Of a stretch of 64,000 bases of DNA, positions 36,408 to 46,788 are shown piece after piece (the first letter of the stretch is position 1; every line of letters starts with the position of its first letter). Made by a program: the position numbers and the translations under genes. This stretch comes from Agreia bicolorata. GTDB lineage: Bacteria; Actinomycetota; Actinomycetes; Actinomycetales; Microbacteriaceae. The stretch covers positions 620,001-684,000 of the forward strand of contig NZ_JYFC01000001.1 of assembly GCF_000938265.1 (NCBI RefSeq), in the 5' to 3' direction. The notes beneath the pieces are model-generated. The model was not told the DNA's origin. It searched no databases and worked only from the letters and a program-made list of their open reading frames with translations.

Positions 36408-37265
36408 CTAGCGCTCGATCTTGTCGAGGTGCAGCATCTTCGCGAGGTTCTTGTCGAGCTCCTCATCGGTGAAGACCTTCTTCCAGTCCTCCTTGATGAT
36501 GGCGCCGCGACCGTAGTCCATGGCGATGAGGCAGGCGTCGCTGAACGGGTTGTCGCCCTTGAGCGTGTTCGCCAGGGCGACCTGCGTGTGGCCGAGCAGG
36601 ATGGCGCGGGCCGCGGGCTCGGGGACGCCCATCGTGTTCACGGCCTCGTCGAGCGACTCCTTAAGCAGCGCACCGATCATGCAGGCGATGGTCTCGACCA
36701 GGGTGGGCTCGAGCTGGGCGAGCTGCTTGACCGTTGTCCAGTGCACGTCGCCGACCGGCGCGAAAATCGCGCGCACGACCTGCTCGACCTGGGCCTTCTT
36801 CGACTCGTCGTCGCTCTCGATCGCGGCGATCGCATCCTGCAGCGCGGCGATTCCGCCGAAGGTGTCGGCGTACTCCTCGGGCGTGTGGCGCTCGACGAAG
36901 ATCGACGGGTGGCACGGGTGCGTCACGGCTTCGATCACGTCGTCGCGACGGGTGAGCAGACCCGCGTAGGCGGCAGCGGGGTCGAGGGTGAGCACTACGG
37001 CGCCGCTCTTCATCTGTGGAACCACGTCGGCCGACACGGCCTTCAGTGCAAGGTCGGGAACAGCGAGCACCACGACATCGGCGTCCTTGACAGCCGTCGG
37101 GGTGTCGGTGAGCACGCGGCCGGTCGCCGTGACGCGCTCCTGTCCTGCGGGCGAGACCTCGCTGTAGTACACGGTGTAGTCGGTCTTGACGAGGTTGTTG
37201 GACACGCGCATGCCCATCTTGCCGCCCGCGCCGATGACGGCGATGGTGAGGTTGTCAGTAGACAT
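36408..37265 (-). CDS. apnO: D-apionate oxidoisomerase-like dehydrogenase
   Basis: A 285-residue NAD(P)-dependent enzyme of the 6-phosphogluconate-dehydrogenase-like superfamily. It has Rossmann motif GAGGKMG (12-18), the segment THPCHPSIF, and a C-terminal all-helical PGDH_C-type domain with TVKQLAQLEPTLVETIACMIG. The characterised family member ApnO oxidises D-apionate with migration of a hydroxymethyl group, giving 3-oxo-isoapionate. The neighbouring genes supply each later step of that route. It is the last gene of the operon; its ATG overlaps the preceding stop by 11 bases and has AAGGAG. An alternative is a dehydrogenase for another branched or four-carbon sugar acid. Confidence 0.6.
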   Translation of the reverse strand: MSTDNLTIAVIGAGGKMGMRVSNNLVKTDYTVYYSEVSPAGQERVTATGRVLTDTPTAVKDADVVVLAVPDLALKAVSADVVPQMKSGAVVLTLDPAAAYAGLLTRRDDVIEAVTHPCHPSIFVERHTPEEYADTFGGIAALQDAIAAIESDDESKKAQVEQVVRAIFAPVGDVHWTTVKQLAQLEPTLVETIACMIGALLKESLDEAVNTMGVPEPAARAILLGHTQVALANTLKGDNPFSDACLIAMDYGRGAIIKEDWKKVFTDEELDKNLAKMLHLDKIER

Positions 37266-38055
37266 TCTTGCTCCTTAGATATGCGAGGTTGTGGTCGTTC
37301 CAGTCGTTCTCCAGCTGCACTGTCTGGTCGATCGTGTCGTGCAGGGGAAGCCAGTGTTCGATCACCTGGTTGATGCCGCGCTCGTTCGGGCGCACGGTCT
37401 CGAGCAGGTAGTCGTAGTCGAGGAGGCCCGTGCCGAGCGGGGCGCCCTCCAGAGTGAAGCCCACCCAGCCGCCGCGCCGGGTGAAGGCGAAGTCCTTCAC
37501 ATGGATGTTCTTGACGTAGGGCGCCGTGCGGGCGATCACGTCTCGCGGGTTCTCGAGCGCGGCCACGCTGTTCGCCGGGTCGAGGCATATGCCCAGCCGG
37601 GAATGCGCGACCTGCTCGACGAGCGAGACCAGGTCGGTCGACGAGACCTGCTCGTAGGTCTCGAGGGCCAGGTCGACCCCGGCATCGCCGTAGGCGTCGA
37701 GAACCTGCCGCAGCTGCGCTTCGGCCTCGACGAGAGTGGGTCGCGACGTGGGCGAGAAGAGCATGCTGCGCACCACGGATGCGTCGAGCCGGGTCGCGAG
37801 GTCGAGATACGTCTCGAGGTGGTCGGGAGTCACGCCCTTCGTGCCGAGCTCGAGGGTGATCCCGAGCTCGCGGGCGAGGTCGGCAAGGCGTGAGACCTCG
37901 TCGCGACTCAGGTCTTCGATCGGTGCGTAGTCGCAGAACTGGAACAGCTCGACGTCCAGCTCCGCCGAGCGGCGGAGCATGTCGAAGGCGTCGAGCCGAC
38001 GCGGCGCGAGTTCCGAGTGCTGCCAGAAGAAGGCGTACGAGCCGAGGCCGATCAC
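37255..38055 (-). CDS. oiaC: PF01261 TIM barrel, 3-oxo-isoapionate decarboxylase-like
   Basis: A 266-residue sugar-phosphate isomerase/epimerase-type (AP_endonuc_2) barrel. Putative metal ligands lie in LALETYEQVSS (Glu), GICLDPANS (Asp) and NIHVKDF (His), with FTLEGAPLGTGLLDY near the C-terminus. In the D-apionate pathway the OiaC step removes CO2 from 3-oxo-isoapionate to give L-erythrulose, and I recall OiaC as belonging to this superfamily. In erythritol pathways the same fold serves as an epimerase (EryC/LerI), so the assignment depends on the ApnO-like neighbour. The GTG start overlaps the upstream stop as GTGA. Confidence 0.5.
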   Translation of the reverse strand: MIGLGSYAFFWQHSELAPRRLDAFDMLRRSAELDVELFQFCDYAPIEDLSRDEVSRLADLARELGITLELGTKGVTPDHLETYLDLATRLDASVVRSMLFSPTSRPTLVEAEAQLRQVLDAYGDAGVDLALETYEQVSSTDLVSLVEQVAHSRLGICLDPANSVAALENPRDVIARTAPYVKNIHVKDFAFTRRGGWVGFTLEGAPLGTGLLDYDYLLETVRPNERGINQVIEHWLPLHDTIDQTVQLENDWNDHNLAYLRSKNVY

Positions 38056-38798
38056 GCTCGGGCCGCCGCTTCGTCGAGAACGCGACCCAACGCATCCGTG
38101 TCGTGGGCGAATCGGCCGAGGAAGATGCCGTCGACCTCGCCGCCGAGCTCGGCCAGCAGGCCGGGGCCGGCGCTGCCGCCGTAGATCACGGCGCTGTTCG
38201 GGCGATCCGCGACGGCGGCGTGCAGCCGCGCACAGACGGACCGCACGTAGGCGGGCGCCGCGGGCTCAGCAGCACCGATCGCCCAGACGGGTTCGTAGGC
38301 GACGATGACGCGGCCCGCGGGTGCGCCGTCGAGCGCCGAGTCGAGCTGGCGCAGACACTCCGTGGCGGCATCCTCGGGAGTCGAGCGCGTCTTCTCGCCC
38401 ACGCACAGCACGGGGGCGAGACCGTTGCGGAGAGCAGCGGAGGTCTTCTTCGCCACGATCTCGTCGGTCTCACCGAACAGGGCGCGGCGCTCTGCGTGAC
38501 CCACCTCGACGACGCGGGCGCCGACCTCGGCGAGCTCGACGCCGCTGACCTCGCCGGTGAACGCTCCCGCATCCTCCGTCGCCAGGTCCTGCGCGCCGAC
38601 GAGCACGGGTGTGCCCTCGAGAACACCGACGCTCGCAGCGAGCGACACGAAGCCCGGAATGACGAAGACCTCGACCGAGCCGTCCTGCACAGCCGGATGG
38701 CGGCGCGCAAGTTCACCGACCTTCGAGATCCAGTCGAGAGTCTGCGCGTGCCCGAAGTACATCTTCAGGCTCACGCCGACGAGGGTGGGGGAGGTCAT
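38052..38798 (-). CDS. eryH: Triosephosphate-isomerase homologue (EryH-like)
   Basis: A 248-residue TIM-family protein with Lys12 (VSLKMYFG), catalytic His in VEVGHAERRALFGE, catalytic Glu in VIVAYEPVWAIG and phosphate loop YGGSAGPG. All essential residues are kept, but the N-terminus (SLKMYFGH rather than NWKMN) marks the tetrulose-phosphate branch. EryH/TpiA2 converts L-erythrulose 1-phosphate to D-erythrulose 4-phosphate. The ATG shares one base with the rpiB-like stop (TGATG). An ordinary glycolytic TpiA is unlikely in this catabolic operon. Confidence 0.75.
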   Translation of the reverse strand: MTSPTLVGVSLKMYFGHAQTLDWISKVGELARRHPAVQDGSVEVFVIPGFVSLAASVGVLEGTPVLVGAQDLATEDAGAFTGEVSGVELAEVGARVVEVGHAERRALFGETDEIVAKKTSAALRNGLAPVLCVGEKTRSTPEDAATECLRQLDSALDGAPAGRVIVAYEPVWAIGAAEPAAPAYVRSVCARLHAAVADRPNSAVIYGGSAGPGLLAELGGEVDGIFLGRFAHDTDALGRVLDEAAARA

Positions 38799-39268
38799 CA
38801 GCAGGAGCCCGTGGCCTCGTACTCCGAGAGCACGGCGACCTTCTCGGCGCTCGCGCTGGAGTCGTCGAAGCGGTAGGTCAGCCACTCGCGGACGAGGCGG
38901 CGGGCGAGCTCGATTCCGATGACGCGCTGGCCCATGGTGAGCACCTGGGCGTTGTTCGAGAGGATCAGTCGCTCGACCGAGAAGCTGTCATGGGCGACGG
39001 ATGCGCGGATTCCCGCGACCTTGCCGGCGGCCATTGCGACACCGATTCCCGTGCCGCAGAAGAGCAGCGCACGGTCGGCCTCGCCGGCCGCGACGAGCTC
39101 GCCGGCCGCGACACCGATCTTGGGATAGGCGGTGTGGCCGTGGGCGTCGACGCCGATGTCGGTGACGCTCTCGACGAGGTCACTCGCCTCGAGATCCTTC
39201 TTCAGGATCTCCTTGTAGTCGAATCCCGCGTCATCGCAGCCGATGACGATGCGAAGCTTGTCAGTCAT
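38798..39268 (-). CDS. eryI: RpiB-family isomerase (EryI-like)
   Basis: A 156-residue RpiB/LacAB-family sugar-phosphate isomerase: [28 protein letters not shown], the catalytic-Cys loop [22 protein letters not shown] and [15 protein letters not shown]. EryI members isomerise D-erythrulose 4-phosphate to D-erythrose 4-phosphate, which enters the pentose phosphate pathway. Ribose 5-phosphate isomerase activity is the alternative; context favours the tetrose role. The ATG overlaps the kinase stop as ATGA. Confidence 0.75.
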
Positions 39269-41004
39269 TTCTCTCCTTCAATGGTGCCGGCCAGGACGGC
39301 GGCGATGGATTGCACGATGAGGCCGAACGAGTAGGCGCCGGCGTCTACAGTGCCGAGGCTCTTCTCCGCGTGCGGACGCGCGCGGCCCATACGAGGAAGC
39401 AGATCGGCCGTTGCCGCCGCGGCTGCCGTCGCCGCGTCGGCCGCGCTCTTCCACGCATCCGCCAAGGCGGCTCCCCCGCCGATCTCTCGGGCGAGAGTGT
39501 CGCGGAAGGGCACGAGAGCGTCGACCATCGTCTTGTCACCCACCTCGGCCTTGCCGAACGACATGATGCCGTCGACCGCGGCCGTGACTCCGACGCACAC
39601 CGACTCGGCCGCCGGTCTGCCCTCGTCACCCAGCGCGTCGCCGACCGCCGACAGGGCGACGCCCCAGAGCGCTCCCGACGTGCCGCCGGCCTTGTTGGCC
39701 CAGGCGTTCGCCGACAGCTCGAGCAGGGTATGGGCCCCGGCTCCCAGGGCGAGCGCCTCGGATGCCGCGGCCGATGCGGCCCGCGCGCCCCGCTGCATCC
39801 CGATGCCGTGATCGCCGTCGCCGGCCACCGCATCAATGCGGCCCAGCTCGTCGACGTTCTCGTCGACGACCCTCGCGATCGCCTCGATCGCTCGGGCAAC
39901 GACTGCGGCAGTCTCTTTCGACGCATCGTCGGCCTCGGGGATCACGAGCGCCTCGGCTGCTTCAACCTCGCTCGGGTCGAGCTGCTGCACGGAACCGACT
40001 GAACCCTTGCGGTAGGCGGGAGTGTCTGCCGGGGCGCGCCAGAAGCGTTCGAGTTCGTCGTCGAGCCAGAACAGCGTGAGCGAGGCACCCGCCATGTCGA
40101 AGCTGGTGACGAGCTCACCCACTTCGGGGTCGACGATCTCGAGGCCGGCGTTCTGAAGCAGAGCGGCGATGCTGCGGTAGACGACGAACAGCTCCTCGTA
40201 CTTCACCGACCCGAGACCGTTGAGGATCACGCCCACCCGCTGGCCCTCGGGCGAGAGGATGCCGTCGGGCAGCTCGGCGAGAAGCGAATCGACAAAAAGG
40301 CGTGCGAGTTCGTCGGCCGTGGGTACGTCGGTCTCGTCGATGCCCGGCTCGCCATGGATGCCCATTCCCACGGCCATACGACCTTGGGGAACCGTGAAGA
40401 GGGGCGCGTCAGCACCCGGCAGTGTGCAGCCGGAGAAGGCCACGCCGACGGAGCGAGTACGCTCGTTCGCCAGCTCGGCGACGCGCACGACCTCGTCGAG
40501 CGGGTATCCCTCCTCTGCGGCCGCAGCGGCCGCCTTGAACACGGTGAAGTCGCCGGCGATGCCGCGTCGTTTGTGCTTCTCGGCGATGGGAGCCGATGAA
40601 ATGTCGTCGGTCACGACCACGGTGCGTGTCGGAATGCCCGCCGCGTTCAGTTTCTGCTCGGCCTGGGTGAAGTGCAGCACGTCTCCGGCGTAGTTGCCGT
40701 AGCTGAGCAGCACCCCTCCCCCGCGATTCGCGGCGGTTGCGACCGACTCGACCTGCTGGGCCGAGGGCGACGCGAACAGATTGCCCATGGCCGCGCCGTG
40801 GGCAAGCCCTTGCCCGACGATGCCACCGAACGCCGGGTAGTGGCCCGAGCCGCCTCCGATGACGAGGGCGACGGTGCCGTTTGGAGTGCGCGTGCTGCGC
40901 ACCACGCCGCCAGCGACTCGACGAACCTGATTGGAGTTGGCAGCGACGAAGCCGTCGATCATTTCATCGGCGAATTCGGTCGGATCGTTGAAGAGGCGAG
41001 TCAT
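39265..41004 (-). CDS. lerK: DAK-family kinase (L-erythrulose or dihydroxyacetone kinase)
   Basis: A 579-residue ATP-dependent kinase with DhaK and DhaL domains fused. DhaK (about 1-335) has [21 protein letters not shown] and [12 protein letters not shown], whose His covalently holds the keto-sugar. DhaL (about 375-579) has [15 protein letters not shown] for Mg-ATP. The family includes dihydroxyacetone kinases and the tetrulose kinases LerK and DerK. The tetrose-phosphate isomerases directly downstream favour L-erythrulose as substrate. It follows the transporter gene by 34 bases. Confidence 0.75.
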
Positions 41005-41038
41005 CTGAGAGCTCCTGGGATTCTGTACATCGACATGA

Positions 41039-42439
41039 TCAGTGGACGATTGCCGGGGCCTTCGCGTCGGGATTGAAGGAGCCGTCCTTCTTTCCCCGAT
41101 GCGAGAGCACGACCATCAGCACCGCCGAGAGCAGCAAGAAGAAGCCCACGATCGCCATCGGCACGAAGTACTGCGGCTCTCCCGCTGAGTCCTTAGTGAG
41201 GTCTGCGACGGCGCCCGTGATGTAGGGGGCGCCGAAACCGGCCAGGTTTCCAACTGTGTTGATCAGCGCGACGCCTGCCGCGGCGGCGACGCCGGTGAGG
41301 AACTGGGTGGGAAGGGTCCAGAAGTTCGGCAGCACGGCGAAGATTGCCATGGCGGTGATCGCGATGACGGCGATTGTGGCCACAGGCGATCCGGCGAACA
41401 GGGCCAGGGGAATCGTGAGAGCGCCGATGACAGCGGGGCCTGCGATGTGCCAGGTCTTGAGTCCGCGCTTCGAGACGTCCTTGGTCCACAGCCACAGCGC
41501 GATTGCAGCCGGAATGTAAGGAACGGCCGTGATGAGGCCCTTCTCGAACACGTTGTACTCGGTGCCGTAGAGCTCCTGGAAACCGTTGATGATCGTCGGC
41601 AGGAAGAAGGCCAGCGTGTAGAGGCCGTAGATGAAGCCGAAGTAGATGAACGCGAGAATCCAGACGCGACCGCTGGTGAAGGCCTGCATAAAACCACCGC
41701 GCTGCTTGCCGGCGGTGACGGCCTGTAGCGACTCGGTCTTGGTCTTCTCTGCCGCGAGCTCCTCGGTGAGCCAGACCTGCTCCTCCTTGGTGAGCCACTT
41801 GGCATCGCTGGGCTTGTCCTTGAGATAGAACCAGGCCACGACACCGATGATGATCGCCGGAGCGCCGACGCCGAGGAACATGACCCGCCAGCCCTCGAGG
41901 CCGAAGAGTCCGTGCGCGCCGATGAGCAGGCCGGCCAGGGGTGCGCCGATCACGGTCGTGAGGGGCTGCGCCAGGTAGAAGAGGGCGAGGATCTTGCCGC
42001 GGTGTCGCGCGGGCACCCACAGGCTGAGAAAGAGGATGGCTCCGGGGAAGAATCCGGCCTCGGCCACACCGAGAACGAAGCGCAGGATGGCGAGCTGCTC
42101 GAAGTTGCCGACCCAGGTGAAGAGAACCGCGACGATTCCCCAGGTGACCATGATGCGCGACAGCCAGCGGCGTGCACCGAAGCGGGCCAGCGCCAGGTTC
42201 GACGGAACCTCGAGCAGGATGTAGCCGATGAAGAAGACGCCCGAAGCGAATCCAACCTGGGTGACTGTGAGAGCCAGGTCGTCGTTCATGCCGTTCGGCG
42301 CGGCGAAGCCGATGGCCGATCGGTCGAGGTAGTTGATGAAGAACATAAAGGCCACGAACGGCACGAGCCGCCACGCAACCTTCTTGATCGTTGATTTCTC
42401 GATGGCTGAGACAGGTGTCTCCGCGCGGGTGCTGGTCAT
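41039..42439 (-). CDS. MFS anion:cation symporter (ACS family)
   Basis: A 466-residue, 12-helix transporter. The ACS signature FFINYLDRSAIGFAAP lies in TM1, and GYILLEVPSNLALARFGARRWLSRIM and ILRFVLGVAEAGFFPGAILFLSLWVP follow. ACS proteins import organic anions such as glucarate, galactonate and tartrate. An acid substrate fits D-apionate and would let the operon skip the sugar-oxidation steps. First gene of the operon; the ATG at 42439 has AAGGAG. The in-frame extension to 42529 runs through the operator region and is rejected. Confidence 0.88.
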   Translation of the reverse strand: MTSTRAETPVSAIEKSTIKKVAWRLVPFVAFMFFINYLDRSAIGFAAPNGMNDDLALTVTQVGFASGVFFIGYILLEVPSNLALARFGARRWLSRIMVTWGIVAVLFTWVGNFEQLAILRFVLGVAEAGFFPGAILFLSLWVPARHRGKILALFYLAQPLTTVIGAPLAGLLIGAHGLFGLEGWRVMFLGVGAPAIIIGVVAWFYLKDKPSDAKWLTKEEQVWLTEELAAEKTKTESLQAVTAGKQRGGFMQAFTSGRVWILAFIYFGFIYGLYTLAFFLPTIINGFQELYGTEYNVFEKGLITAVPYIPAAIALWLWTKDVSKRGLKTWHIAGPAVIGALTIPLALFAGSPVATIAVIAITAMAIFAVLPNFWTLPTQFLTGVAAAAGVALINTVGNLAGFGAPYITGAVADLTKDSAGEPQYFVPMAIVGFFLLLSAVLMVVLSHRGKKDGSFNPDAKAPAIVH

Positions 42440-42502: not shown

Positions 42503-42532
42503 CAACCGGTTGACCAATTTGACAACCATATC
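42503..42532. promoter_or_regulatory. Palindromic operator of the tetrose/apionate operon
   Basis: Perfect 10-base palindrome CAACCGGTTG (42503-42512) overlaps a looser one, GGTTGAC..GACAACC. It lies about 65 bases upstream of the transporter start. Read from the minus strand it contains TTGGTCAACC, resembling GntR-type half sites. Confidence 0.45.
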
Positions 42533-42627
42533 GCCCCCTCGGAGCTACGCGCAAGCGGCAGTCCGAGCATCGTTTGCGCACGCTTCGCCGGGTGTTTGCC
42601 GGGAATTCCGCCGGAGCCGCCCGCATC

Positions 42628-42663
42628 CGTTGCACGGAGTGCGTCGTTGCACGTAGTGTAACG
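42628..42663 (+). promoter_or_regulatory. tetR promoter with tandem operator repeats
   Basis: CGTTGCAC-N3-GTGTAACG (42645-42663, one mismatch) preceded 17 bases upstream by a weaker copy CGTTGCAC-N3-GTGCGTCG (42628-42646). A promoter TTGCAC-N18-TAGTGT (-10 at 42654-42659) lies inside, seven bases before the GTG of tetR. Confidence 0.55.
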
Positions 42664-42666
42664 ACC

Positions 42667-43299
42667 GTGACTGCCGAGCCCGTTGTGATGGATCGTCGCG
42701 CCGAGCTGAAAGCGCGGCACCGCGAGGCCATTCTCGACGCTGCGGACTCGCTGATTCTCGAGAGAGGCAAGGCCCGATTCAGCGTCGACGAGCTCGCCGA
42801 ACGCGCCGACATAGCCCGCCGCACCGTCTTCAATCACTTCTCTTCGCTCGACGACGTGATCATGACCAGCTGCACGCGCACCCTCAACCGCGCAGTCGAC
42901 GAATTTCTCGCCGTCACGAGCGTCACCCCATCGAGCCACGGCACCAGCGCGGCGCTCTTCGCCGAGATCACCACGGCGGTCAAGGCTATGGATCTGCCCA
43001 GTCTGATCTCGTACTTCTTCGGCCTTCTCGACGGCGATGACGCCCGTGCAGAGAATGCCGACGGCGTGTTCATGCGGTCGACCGAAGCTCTTACAGTCGA
43101 ACTCGCCCGGCGAAGCGGTGTCGATGAGTTCGAGGTCGCGATCCTGGTGAGCACGCTGATGAACGGCATCGCGGCGATCGCTCGGCACTGGATGGTCCAG
43201 GCGGACGGCATCCTCGACGCAGATTCGAGGAGCCTCTGGGACAGCCTGCTCGACCGCTTCGTCCGAATCGTCCGCGACGGATACTCCACCTCGAGCTGA
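42667..43299 (+). CDS. TetR-family transcriptional regulator
   Basis: A 210-residue TetR repressor. The helix-turn-helix is LILERGKARFSVDELAERADIARRTVFNHFSSLDDV (about 36-70), followed by a ligand-binding helical domain. The GTG at 42667 lacks a ribosome site but has a -10 seven bases upstream; an ATG at 42688 is the alternative. It precedes the MMPL exporter gene by 93 bases on the same strand, so it likely controls itself and the exporter. Control of the divergent operon is also possible. Confidence 0.87.
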   Translation: MTAEPVVMDRRAELKARHREAILDAADSLILERGKARFSVDELAERADIARRTVFNHFSSLDDVIMTSCTRTLNRAVDEFLAVTSVTPSSHGTSAALFAEITTAVKAMDLPSLISYFFGLLDGDDARAENADGVFMRSTEALTVELARRSGVDEFEVAILVSTLMNGIAAIARHWMVQADGILDADSRSLWDSLLDRFVRIVRDGYSTSS

Positions 43300-43392
43300 G
43301 TCCCGCTCCCTCTTTCCCCCTCTCTCTTCCCAACGATGCGATGCGAGACTCCTCCCCCGTCACCCGCTCATTTCAGAAAGAAGCTGAGGAAC

Positions 43393-45927
43393 ATGGCATC
43401 CCTTCTCTACCGACTCGGTCGGTTCTCCGCCCGACGAGCCTGGCTCGTCATCGTTGCATGGGTGGTGATCCTCGGACTCGCGGGCGGCGCCTTCGCGCTC
43501 TTCGGAGGCACCCTCACCTCAGCCGTGAGCATTCCGGGCACGGCCACGCAGAAGGTCAGCGACGAACTCGCAGAGAAGTTCCCCGCTGCCAGCGGTGGGC
43601 GTGGCACGGTGGTCTTCACCACCACCGATGATTCGGCGTTCACCGACGCTCAGAAGACCGCCATCGGCACGCTTCTGAACGACGCGACAAAGCTCGACGA
43701 TGTGAAGGCGACGACGAACCCCTTCGACACCCAGGCGAAGATCGACAGCTCCGCCCAGCAGGTCATCGATGGGCGGCAGAAGATCGCCGACGCCACCGCG
43801 CAGCTCGAGCTGGGACAACAGCAGCTCGATGCGGCCAAGGCGCAGGCGGCGACAGGACAGCAGCAACTCGACGCCGCCAAGGCGCAGGCTGAGGCCGCAG
43901 GCCAGCTCGACGCCGCCCAGGCGCAGCTCGACGCGCAACAGGCTCAGATCGATGCCGGCAACGCCCAGATCGCGTCCCAGCAGGCGACGCTCGACTCGAA
44001 CCGAGCCGAGCTCGAGAAGCAGACCAAGACGCTCGAAGACGGCTCGCAGCTTCTCGACCTGTCCGCCAATATTCGGCAGGTCTCATCAGACGGCACCACC
44101 GCCGTAGGCACCGTGCAGTTCGACAAGTCACTCAACCTCGTTCCAGCCGAAGCGAAAGAGGCCGTCGTCGCGGCCATGAACGATGCGAAGATCGACGGCG
44201 TTTCAGTCGAGGTATCGAACGACATCGCGGCAACCATCCCCGAGGTTCTCGGCCCGGGTGAGATCGCCGGTGTCATCTTCGCCGCCATCGTGCTGTTTGT
44301 GATGCTGGGAACCCTGATCGGTGCGAGCCTTCCGTTGATCAACGCGATCATCGGAGTGGGCGTGGGTGTGCTCGTATCGCTCGCCCTGTCGGGCACCGTC
44401 ACGATGCTCTCCATCACGCCCGTGCTGGGTGTGATGCTCGGGCTCGCTGTCGGAATCGACTATTCGCTATTCATCCTCAACCGACACCGAACCCAACTGC
44501 GCTCGGGCCTCGAGCTGCAGGAATCCATCGGCCTGGCCAACGGAACCTCCGGCAACGCCGTGGTCTTTGCAGGCTCGACCGTGCTAATCGCGCTGCTCGC
44601 GCTCAACCTCACAGGGATCCCCTTCCTGGGACTCATGGGAACCGTGGGTGCGGTCTGTGTGTTCGTCGCCATCCTGATCGCGATCACCCTGACCCCGGCC
44701 TTCCTTCGGCTGGCCGGCATGCGCATCCTCAACAAGAAGGCCCGAGCCAAGGTCGGTCACGCCGATCACCAGGCTCGGGTTCCGAACAAGCCGATGAACA
44801 CCCTGCGTGCCGTGGTCACCGTGGTGGCCGGAATCGCCGTGCTGCTCGTTGTGGCACTGCCCGCGCTCTCGATGCGACTCGGCCTGCCGGCCGGCTCCTC
44901 CGAACCGGTCGACTCGAGCGCCTACAAGGCGTACAAGCTGGTAGACGACAAGTTCGGTGCCGGCGTCAATGGCCCGCTGATCGTCGTTGCCGACCTCGAC
45001 AAGGCGATCACAGACGATGAGCTTGTGAGCGAGCAGGCACGCATCGGCACCCTGCTGAAGGCCGAGAACGATGTCGTCGCCGTGGCCCCGATCGGTGCCA
45101 GCGACGACGACATGCTGCTGGCCTTCCAGGTCGTTCCCAAGGAGGGCCCCACCAGCGAGTCGACCGAGCAGCTGGTGCGCGACCTTCGAGGCCTCACCAT
45201 CGACGGTGTGGCAGAGCTCGGCGTCGCCGGCAACGCCTCGGGCAACATCGACGTGAGCGAGAAACTCGCCGATGCCCTACCGCTCTACCTGACGGTCGTT
45301 GTGGGACTCTCCCTGATCATCCTGATCCTCGTGTTCAGGTCGATTCTTGTGCCGATCACCGCGACGGCCGGCTTCGTGTTGTCTCTGTTCGCGGCATTCG
45401 GCGGCATCACGGCTGTCTTCCAGTGGGGCTGGCTGGGAGCCGTCTTCGGGGTGCACGATCCGGGCCCCATTCTGAGCTTCCTTCCGATCCTTGTGGTCGG
45501 GGTGCTGTTCGGGCTGGCGATGGACTACCAGCTGTTCCTGGTGAGCGGCATGCGCGAGTCGTATGCGCACGGCGCTCCGGCCCGACTGGCGGTTCAGCGT
45601 GGAGTTCACGCCGGACGCACGGTGGTCATAGCCGCCGCACTCATCATGATCAGTGTGTTCGGAGGCTTCGTCTTCTCCAACTCAGTCATGATCCAGTCGA
45701 TCGGCCTCGGCCTCGCCCTCGGTGTGCTGGTCGACGCGTTCGTGGTGCGACTGCTGATCATTCCTGCGGTGATGCACCTGCTCGGCAAGGCGGCCTGGTG
45801 GCTGCCGAAGTGGCTCGACCGCATCCTGCCCGATGTCGACGTCGAGGGTGCATCTCTTCAGCGCAAACACCCGGTCCAAGCTCACGGAGCCGCTGCTCCG
45901 GAGCACGCTGAGGCGGCCACCGCCTAG
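43393..45927 (+). CDS. MMPL/RND-family exporter with extracellular coiled coil
   Basis: An 844-residue membrane exporter with two MMPL halves. TM1 is at about 18-38. A first extracytoplasmic region contains a long Gln/Ala/Asp-rich coiled coil (about 115-222, with GQQQLDAAKAQA repeated at 141 and 155). A TM2-6 block (GVGVGVLVSLAL.., LGVMLGLAVGIDYSLFIL), a second extracytoplasmic region and a second TM block (VVGVLFGLAMDYQLFLVSGMRE) follow. The paired GIDYS and AMDYQ motifs hold the proton-relay Asp-Tyr residues of MmpL proteins. Substrates may be drugs or lipids. It is encoded after tetR. Confidence 0.9.
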   Translation: MASLLYRLGRFSARRAWLVIVAWVVILGLAGGAFALFGGTLTSAVSIPGTATQKVSDELAEKFPAASGGRGTVVFTTTDDSAFTDAQKTAIGTLLNDATKLDDVKATTNPFDTQAKIDSSAQQVIDGRQKIADATAQLELGQQQLDAAKAQAATGQQQLDAAKAQAEAAGQLDAAQAQLDAQQAQIDAGNAQIASQQATLDSNRAELEKQTKTLEDGSQLLDLSANIRQVSSDGTTAVGTVQFDKSLNLVPAEAKEAVVAAMNDAKIDGVSVEVSNDIAATIPEVLGPGEIAGVIFAAIVLFVMLGTLIGASLPLINAIIGVGVGVLVSLALSGTVTMLSITPVLGVMLGLAVGIDYSLFILNRHRTQLRSGLELQESIGLANGTSGNAVVFAGSTVLIALLALNLTGIPFLGLMGTVGAVCVFVAILIAITLTPAFLRLAGMRILNKKARAKVGHADHQARVPNKPMNTLRAVVTVVAGIAVLLVVALPALSMRLGLPAGSSEPVDSSAYKAYKLVDDKFGAGVNGPLIVVADLDKAITDDELVSEQARIGTLLKAENDVVAVAPIGASDDDMLLAFQVVPKEGPTSESTEQLVRDLRGLTIDGVAELGVAGNASGNIDVSEKLADALPLYLTVVVGLSLIILILVFRSILVPITATAGFVLSLFAAFGGITAVFQWGWLGAVFGVHDPGPILSFLPILVVGVLFGLAMDYQLFLVSGMRESYAHGAPARLAVQRGVHAGRTVVIAAALIMISVFGGFVFSNSVMIQSIGLGLALGVLVDAFVVRLLIIPAVMHLLGKAAWWLPKWLDRILPDVDVEGASLQRKHPVQAHGAAAPEHAEAATA

Positions 45928-46044: not shown

Positions 46045-46788
46045 GTGCCCGCCTTTCCCGATCGACCCGCCACCGACGAGATCAGTGCGGCCCTGAGTTC
46101 TGTCGCCAGCGGCACCGCCGTCTCGGCGGTCGCCAAGCGTCTGCTCGATCTGTTCATGGGCGGAGACATCGCGCCCGGCACGCGGCTCCCGCCCGAACGA
46201 CAGCTTGCCGCGGCCCTCGGAATCGGTCGATCGGCCGTGCGCGAGGCACTCGCGGCGCTCGAGATCCTGGGCATCGTCGATGTGCGGCCCGGCAGCGGCA
46301 CGTATCTTCGCGGCTCCGTCTCGGAGCTGCTTCCCGAGACACTCAGCTGGGGACTCATGCTCGGCGAGCCGCGCACGCGCGAATTGATCGAGGTGCGCGG
46401 CGCACTCGAGGTCTTCGCCACAGAGCTCGCGGCACGCCGTATGCCCGACGAGGCGTTGACACGACTCGGTCAGCACCTCGCCGCGATGAAAGAAGCCGGC
46501 GACAATCACACGCGCTTCATCGAGGCAGACCTCAAGTTCCACCTCGAGATCGCGCGAGGCGTCGACAATTCGGTGCTCGTCACTCTGCTGCAGAGCATCC
46601 GTTCGCTTCTGCGCATCTGGGTCGAGCGAGGACTGCACGATTCGGGCGACGCCGACCAGGCCTACGACGAGCACGTCGCCGTGCATGAAGCGCTGCTCTC
46701 GCGCGACCCCGAGGCCGCGGCCTCGGCCATGCGCGCGCATATGGTGACGGCGACCGAGCGTCTGCTTCGAACTCTGCCGGCCGCCTGA
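46045..46788 (+). CDS. GntR/FadR-family transcriptional regulator
   Basis: A 247-residue FadR-subfamily regulator. The winged helix is GTRLPPERQLAAALGIGRSAVREALAALEILGIVDVRPGSGTYL (about 45-90), and a C-terminal FCD ligand domain (about 110-235) has metal-type His/Asp residues in DLKFHLEIARG and EHVAVHEALLSRD. Its stop overlaps the ATG of the cardiolipin synthase gene (TGATG), so the two are expressed together. The effector is unknown; FCD proteins usually sense organic acids. Confidence 0.88.
   Translation: MPAFPDRPATDEISAALSSVASGTAVSAVAKRLLDLFMGGDIAPGTRLPPERQLAAALGIGRSAVREALAALEILGIVDVRPGSGTYLRGSVSELLPETLSWGLMLGEPRTRELIEVRGALEVFATELAARRMPDEALTRLGQHLAAMKEAGDNHTRFIEADLKFHLEIARGVDNSVLVTLLQSIRSLLRIWVERGLHDSGDADQAYDEHVAVHEALLSRDPEAAASAMRAHMVTATERLLRTLPAA

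Follow-up and report, generated by a model that had tools for sequence, protein, structure and literature searches.

A six-gene operon of Agreia bicolorata as the predicted lower part of an oxidative D-apiose pathway

The branched sugar apiose occurs in rhamnogalacturonan II and in many plant glycosides. A 64-kb window of the Agreia bicolorata genome (NZ_JYFC01000001.1; C1:620001-684000, the whole stretch of DNA analysed here) carries six closely packed open reading frames (ORFs), all on the minus strand at 36408-42439, which raise the question of what they degrade and how the cell comes by it. An initial annotation, made from the window alone, read them as an operon converting D-apionate to D-erythrose 4-phosphate and, as no D-apiose dehydrogenase or lactonase was seen, suggested that the cell may import the acid. 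In this study, we examined the operon in the context of its genome (3.92 Mb, 20 contigs) and of its relatives. To judge from the sequence, the operon very probably encodes the lower steps of an oxidative pathway for D-apiose, with likely genes for the upper steps behind the same predicted operator on another contig. The single-window reading is thereby corrected, since likely genes for the missing steps lie elsewhere in the genome.

The comparisons cover 60 related genomes and 80 named loci, the best 80 of 409 confirmed. Because nearly all of the named loci come from Microbacteriaceae they are not independent, and several of them end at contig ends. A gene was counted as present in them at an identity threshold chosen per protein, together with 35% coverage.

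The operon and its predicted chemistry

The ORFs and their junctions agree with the initial annotation, which had described a compact operon: in 5' to 3' gene order, a 34-bp gap is followed by overlaps of 4, 1, 4 and 11 bp. Pfam likewise confirmed each gene family that it had named. All on the minus strand, the genes encode an MFS transporter of the anion:cation-symporter type (41039-42439; MFS_1, 164 bits), a DAK-family kinase (39265-41004; Dak1 365 and Dak2 149 bits), an RpiB-like protein (38798-39268; LacAB_rpiB PF02502, 144 bits), a TIM-like protein (38052-38798; TIM PF00121, 182 bits), a PF01261 barrel (37255-38055; AP_endonuc_2, 64 bits), and a protein that joins an NAD-binding domain to a PGDH_C domain (36408-37265; NAD_binding_2 35 bits, PGDH_C PF16896 190 bits). 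Gene content, order and homologies are thus read directly; every substrate named below is a prediction.

This set very probably converts an apiose-derived acid to a sugar phosphate of central metabolism. D-apionate, formed inside the cell or imported through the MFS protein, a predicted carrier for this or a similar acid, would be oxidized and rearranged to 3-oxo-isoapionate by the PGDH_C protein (D-apionate oxidoisomerase, ApnO). The PF01261 barrel (3-oxo-isoapionate decarboxylase, OiaC) would then yield L-erythrulose, which the DAK protein (L-erythrulose kinase, LerK) would phosphorylate, and the TIM-like and RpiB-like proteins, candidates for LerI/EryH and DerI/EryI, would carry the erythrulose phosphate through D-erythrulose 4-phosphate to D-erythrose 4-phosphate. 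The names ApsD, ApnL, ApnO, OiaC, LerK, LerI and DerI, as well as the chemistry of ApnO and OiaC, reportedly go back to Carter et al. (2018, Nat Chem Biol). The assignment of these steps, which the initial annotation had also made, is well supported at the level of homology and context.

For the kinase and the two isomerases, the families fit (Dak1/Dak2, PF00121, PF02502), yet no model specific to the proposed activities reaches its cut-off. The DAK protein scores 751 bits with NF011049, the dihydroxyacetone kinase family (cut-off 492); the RpiB-like protein scores 137 with NF051858, the rhizobial D-erythrulose-4-phosphate isomerase (cut-off 240); and of the 9 TIM models that NCBIfam lists for the TIM-like protein, none reaches its cut-off. 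This last protein retains the catalytic motifs SLKMY, VGHAERR and AYEPVW and has VSLKM in place of the GNWKM of a second TIM, encoded on contig C19. Since a second RpiB (C18) and a separate DhaK (C19) are also present in the genome, the operon copies are extra paralogues, and in view of the second copies we rejected housekeeping roles for the RpiB-like and TIM-like proteins. In the PF01261 barrel, E132, D159, H185 and E233, presumably the metal ligands, are unchanged in 20 of 20 aligned relatives, no characterized OiaC being among the sequences compared. The MFS protein has a D-galactonate transporter as its top NCBIfam model (263.5 bits, under the cut-off of 395).

The initial annotation had named grouping of the PGDH_C protein with, for example, threonate or erythronate dehydrogenases as an outcome that would speak against its reading. 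We rejected this identity: the L-threonate dehydrogenase model NF043037 gives 23.1 bits against a cut-off of 350, and the C-terminal domain is PGDH_C. The protein is instead 42.5% identical to a Rhizobium protein encoded beside OiaX and OiaK, and 41.6% identical to PDB 5t57. It is 99% identical in Agreia sp. PsM10, A. pratensis and Agreia sp. Leaf283.

The six-gene arrangement is far above chance. Among the named loci, ApnO and OiaC occur in 78, TIM in 71, RpiB in 67, DAK in 65 and MFS in 44; all five enzyme genes share one locus in 64, and the MFS gene joins them in 41. Outside Microbacteriaceae, the named loci include ones from Glycomyces, Dactylosporangium and Jiangella. ApnO and OiaC also stay together where DAK, RpiB and TIM form another gene group of the stretch (L159, L161) or fall outside the stretch examined (L143, L157, L182).

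This pairing bears on another reading of the operon, as one for erythritol or threitol catabolism (LerK, LerI, DerI) accompanied by two unrelated extra genes. We take the kinase and isomerases of tetritol catabolism to be DAK, TIM and RpiB-like proteins. According to PMC10733421 and PMC12780249, a kinase and isomerases of these reactions do serve tetritol catabolism, and the former describes how LerI and DerI, working with LerK in E. coli, lead erythrulose phosphates to D-erythrose 4-phosphate. None of the six genes encodes a polyol dehydrogenase, however, on which ground we discarded the reading, and ApnO accompanies OiaC in 78 of the 80 loci, including the five named above in which the other three enzymes stand apart. 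A tetritol operon is scarcely credible here.

Upper steps and a shared predicted operator

That neither a D-apiose dehydrogenase nor a lactonase is encoded in the window is correct. It does not hold for the genome, in which contig C15 carries a short-chain dehydrogenase/reductase (SDR) gene (L087:3716-4519) directly ahead of an ApnL homologue (C15:227546-229372; L087:4547-6373). This pair lies behind the same predicted operator as the operon, and the suggestion that the cell depends on imported acid is not supported. The sole NCBIfam match of the ApnL homologue is NF049900, D-apionate lactonase (E 1e-52). We propose that the SDR would oxidize D-apiose to D-apionolactone and that ApnL would open the ring to give D-apionate. 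The dehydrogenase of the known pathway is presumably of the Gfo/Idh/MocA class; the SDR, most likely a D-apiose 1-dehydrogenase, would stand in for it, a predicted function that is new.

The predicted operator, ATTGGTCAACCGGTT, lies at 42504-42518 on the minus strand, 64 bp ahead of the MFS start codon. The 16-mer AAATTGGTCAACCGGT has exactly two copies in the 3.92 Mb, one ahead of the operon and one ahead of the SDR-ApnL pair, whereas base composition would lead one to expect 0.002 copies of the exact 15-base core. With up to 2 mismatches the genome holds 4 matches and the reversed pattern gives 2; of the four, just the pair of exact copies stands clearly above this control, and the fourth sits within an ORF. 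Five genomes of the genus bear the operon, and all of them retain AATTGGTCAACCGGT at both the operon and the SDR-ApnL promoter. A third site, exact over ATTGGTCAACCGGTT, lies on C14 ahead of genes for a sugar ABC transporter (a solute-binding protein, a permease and, by sequence, a second permease) and for an apiosidase-like hydrolase (L190:12327-14321). This DUF5060/PF13204/DUF5605 protein has a middle domain that is apiosidase-like according to Pfam, in a layout that we take to be untypical for GH140. The best reading of these loci is that operon, SDR-ApnL pair and C14 transporter and hydrolase genes form a dispersed D-apiose regulon, in which the predicted operator would be a new point.

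Upstream of the operon, a FadR-type GntR regulator is encoded on the plus strand (46045-46788; GntR 63.6 bits, FCD 98 bits). It is the predicted regulator of the operon and, from its position, probably reads the operator; it would bind ATTGGTCAACCGGTT at the operon, the near-identical copy at SDR-ApnL and the third copy on C14. Both the pairing of regulator and site and the direction of regulation are predicted. A FadR homologue (at least 50% identity) is present in 69 of the named loci and, in 59 of these, is divergent from the first operon gene and less than 500 bp away. Nothing was found in a scan for consensus promoters and terminators ahead of the operon.

The site recurs among relatives. 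After nine named loci were dropped because no more than 300 bp separate their first gene from the stretch end, 71 could be tested, and the core ahead of the first operon gene is exact in 55, has 1 mismatch in 7 and 2 mismatches in 5, and is absent from 4; the reversed pattern in the same loci gives 2 mismatches in 5 and nothing better. L143 carries a 2-mismatch form. The ApnO query matched 20 of the 60 genomes at E 1e-3 or better, of which 13 were strong (E 1e-48 or better) and 7 weak (E 2e-5 or worse) and dropped. The operator, with at most 1 mismatch, occurs in 9 of the 13 strong-ApnO genomes (the remainder being G010, G023, G033 and G036) versus 3 of the 47 others. The scan of the 60 genomes gave 21 matches in all, 3 of them in genomes without ApnO, versus 5 for the reversed pattern. 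Two more operator copies, at L214:2619 (G009) and L213:7458 (G028), lie near transporter genes and genes that are SMP-30/gluconolactonase-like by sequence, possibly an alternative lactonase.

The upper-pathway genes travel with the operon as well. A search with Salipiger ApnL, which itself scores 633 bits against the NF049900 cut-off of 750, found homologues in 13 of the 60 genomes, A. bicolorata included, and 12 of the 13 strong-ApnO genomes are among them (five of the twelve belong to one genus). SDR and ApnL both lie within the stretch of 42 named loci. Of the named loci, 43 have an SDR match of 60% or more, and in 38 of these the SDR starts at most 215 bp from the end of the ApnO gene; it is the next gene after ApnO, within that distance, in 38 of the 80 relatives. 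It joins ApnL even in a locus of the OiaX type, L055, which has OiaX, OiaK and an SDR at 61% identity.

These data also bear on uptake of the acid as the only entry, in which D-apionate made by other organisms would be taken up and the SDR-ApnL pair would serve something else. The anion-symporter type of the MFS protein, with its D-galactonate transporter model, agrees with such a reading, as do genome G059, which carries the operon with no ApnL match, and the loci of Pantoea and Erwinia described below, which have no match to ApnL or SDR (Pantoea has an SMP-30/gluconolactonase-family gene further on). Against it stand ApnL in 12 of 13 strong-ApnO genomes, the SDR-ApnL pair in the same stretch of 42 named loci, and the identical 16-mer ahead of both loci in this genome. 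On the strength of the genome's own ApnL homologue and of that common 16-mer we set it aside as unlikely; uptake of D-apionate by the MFS protein in addition to its formation from D-apiose is possible.

Two PGDH_C groups and the substrate

Several findings weigh against the D-apiose pathway proposed here. The ApnL homologue scores 179 bits, short of the equivalog cut-off of 750, with its best stretch at residues 14-242, and ApnL evolves fast in Agreia (57-79% identity within the genus, compared with 90-93% for the SDR and 98-99% for ApnO). For the Gfo/Idh/MocA dehydrogenase encoded in the Salipiger cluster the genome offers no clear counterpart, the best match being unlinked and 33% identical over only part of the query. 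G006, the converse of G059, has an ApnL match and no ApnO. The third operator copy occurs in this genome only and is missing from the other four of the genus, and no operator was seen ahead of the window's FadR gene. The sugar-binding protein of a Rhizobium-type ABC transporter, discussed below, has no orthologue in the genome (best 32%). The RpiB-like protein reaches 184 bits with TIGR02133, RPI_actino (actinobacterial ribose-5-phosphate isomerase; cut-off 168); we set this name aside because a second RpiB exists and because the gene lies in the ApnO locus in 67 of 80 relatives.

The last such points come from a tree of the PGDH_C protein (29 rows, of which 27 were hand-chosen from 98 collected ApnO sequences and two are PDB chains). 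The window's protein falls within a clade of 21 rows (support 100/100) made up of OiaC-linked actinobacterial and Erwiniaceae proteins plus Jiangella, one Jiangella row having no adjacent OiaC. On the far side of a long branch (2.51) stand Rhizobium, Salipiger, PDB 5t57 and a pair of actinobacterial rows linked to OiaX, and a different branched acid is therefore conceivable as the substrate. Placement is less regular at the margins: the OiaX-linked G033 stands at the base of the window's clade with weak support (59/69), and G036, although encoded next to an OiaC-like protein (31%), belongs to the other group, where it has a long branch.

The same chemistry might thus act on another branched or tetronic acid, again ending in erythrulose, with the window's clade differing in substrate from classical ApnO. 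The deep split favours this, as do three aligned positions that are fixed differently between the two groups. Both groups, however, are accompanied by ApnL and SDR homologues (L055 with OiaX and OiaK, many Microbacterium loci with OiaC), and the alignment has 44 positions that never vary among the 21 clade rows and six others (5t57, Rhizobium, Salipiger, G033, G154 and G293). The 44 shared and three differing positions therefore support one family, yet leave room for another substrate. We regard another acid as more doubtful still than dependence on imported D-apionate, and D-apionate as the preferred substrate.

In two Jiangella loci, L147 and L177, OiaC was not found in the stretch examined. 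Their ApnO-like gene (73-74% identity) lies near a LacI-like regulator and, by sequence, an SMP-30-like gene, which may point to another use of ApnO.

Related clusters and wider meaning

The kind of pathway is already known. With the decarboxylation branch of the oxidative D-apiose pathway, the window shares candidates for ApnO, OiaC, LerK, LerI and DerI in one operon, and the genome shares an ApnL homologue behind a copy of the operon's predicted operator. Agreia differs in having an SDR for the Gfo/Idh/MocA protein, a distant ApnL, a FadR-type regulator with its operator, and several loci, all in an actinobacterium. Rhodobacteraceae strain LCG007 reportedly grows on D-apiose and, according to PMC11747546, has a cluster with annotated apiose dehydrogenase, lactonase and oxidoisomerase in common with Agreia, but with a 3-oxoisoapionate kinase and a phosphate decarboxylase, the OiaK/OiaX-type branch. 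E. coli handles D-apiose by another route, according to PMC13001218.

A plasmid cluster of Rhizobium leguminosarum (NZ_CP048281.1) resembles the window in its ApnO-like protein and ApnL homologue (45% identical to Salipiger ApnL). It differs in that a kinase and the RuBisCO-like OiaX replace the OiaC-DAK-TIM-RpiB set: its OiaX reaches 782 bits with NF042437 (cut-off 700) and its OiaK homologue 472 (cut-off 700). No match to OiaX or OiaK is listed for the window, the remainder of the genome not having been searched for either. The Rhizobium cluster also encodes a Gfo/Idh/MocA protein and a ribose-type ABC transporter. In L049, L060 and L091 a similar transporter, whose binding protein shares about 61% identity with the Rhizobium one, is encoded close to the operon or to ApnL, and a related one occurs in 7 of the named loci.

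Plasmids of Pantoea sp. At-9b (NC_014841.1) and Erwinia sp. E602 (NZ_CP046581.1) carry MFS, DAK, TIM, barrel and PGDH_C genes in the same order as the window, at 48-64% identity (MFS 63-64%, DAK 64%, barrel 49-50%, PGDH_C 58%). Unlike the window, they have rpiB divergent upstream, a sugar-binding transcriptional regulator downstream, and no operator ahead of MFS (best 5-6 mismatches); no ApnL or SDR match was found in the stretch examined. After the Pantoea operon, an SMP-30/gluconolactonase-family gene and ABC transporter genes (L009:13694-15817) might supply a lactone-opening step.

A broader proposal, which we consider evenly balanced, is that Microbacteriaceae and some other actinobacteria possess a D-apiose regulon not described before. 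An SDR-type D-apiose 1-dehydrogenase, non-orthologous to Gfo/Idh/MocA, and a divergent lactonase would supply the OiaC branch, controlled by a FadR-type repressor recognizing AATTGGTCAACCGGTT. In this genome the repressor would also control a sugar importer and the DUF5060/PF13204/DUF5605 hydrolase, which would release apiose. In the openly accessible literature (subscription papers lay outside the scope), no paper was found that mentions apiose dehydrogenase or both apiose and Microbacterium, and none of the titles listed concerned actinobacterial apiose catabolism. A complete apiose route is predicted for a widespread actinobacterial family and a candidate for a new type of apiose dehydrogenase is named, open to test. 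The short regulatory site could be used to seek apiose genes, possibly glycosidases among them, across genomes.

Between the FadR gene and the operon, the window carries a TetR and MMPL gene pair (42574-45927, plus strand), which also separates them in Agreia loci L107, L108 and L110 and not in that of Agreia sp. PsM10 (L106). In two relatives, a nucleoside-hydrolase-like gene lies close to the apionate genes (L049:3903-4943, PF01156; L060:1675-2565, with a similar N-terminus).

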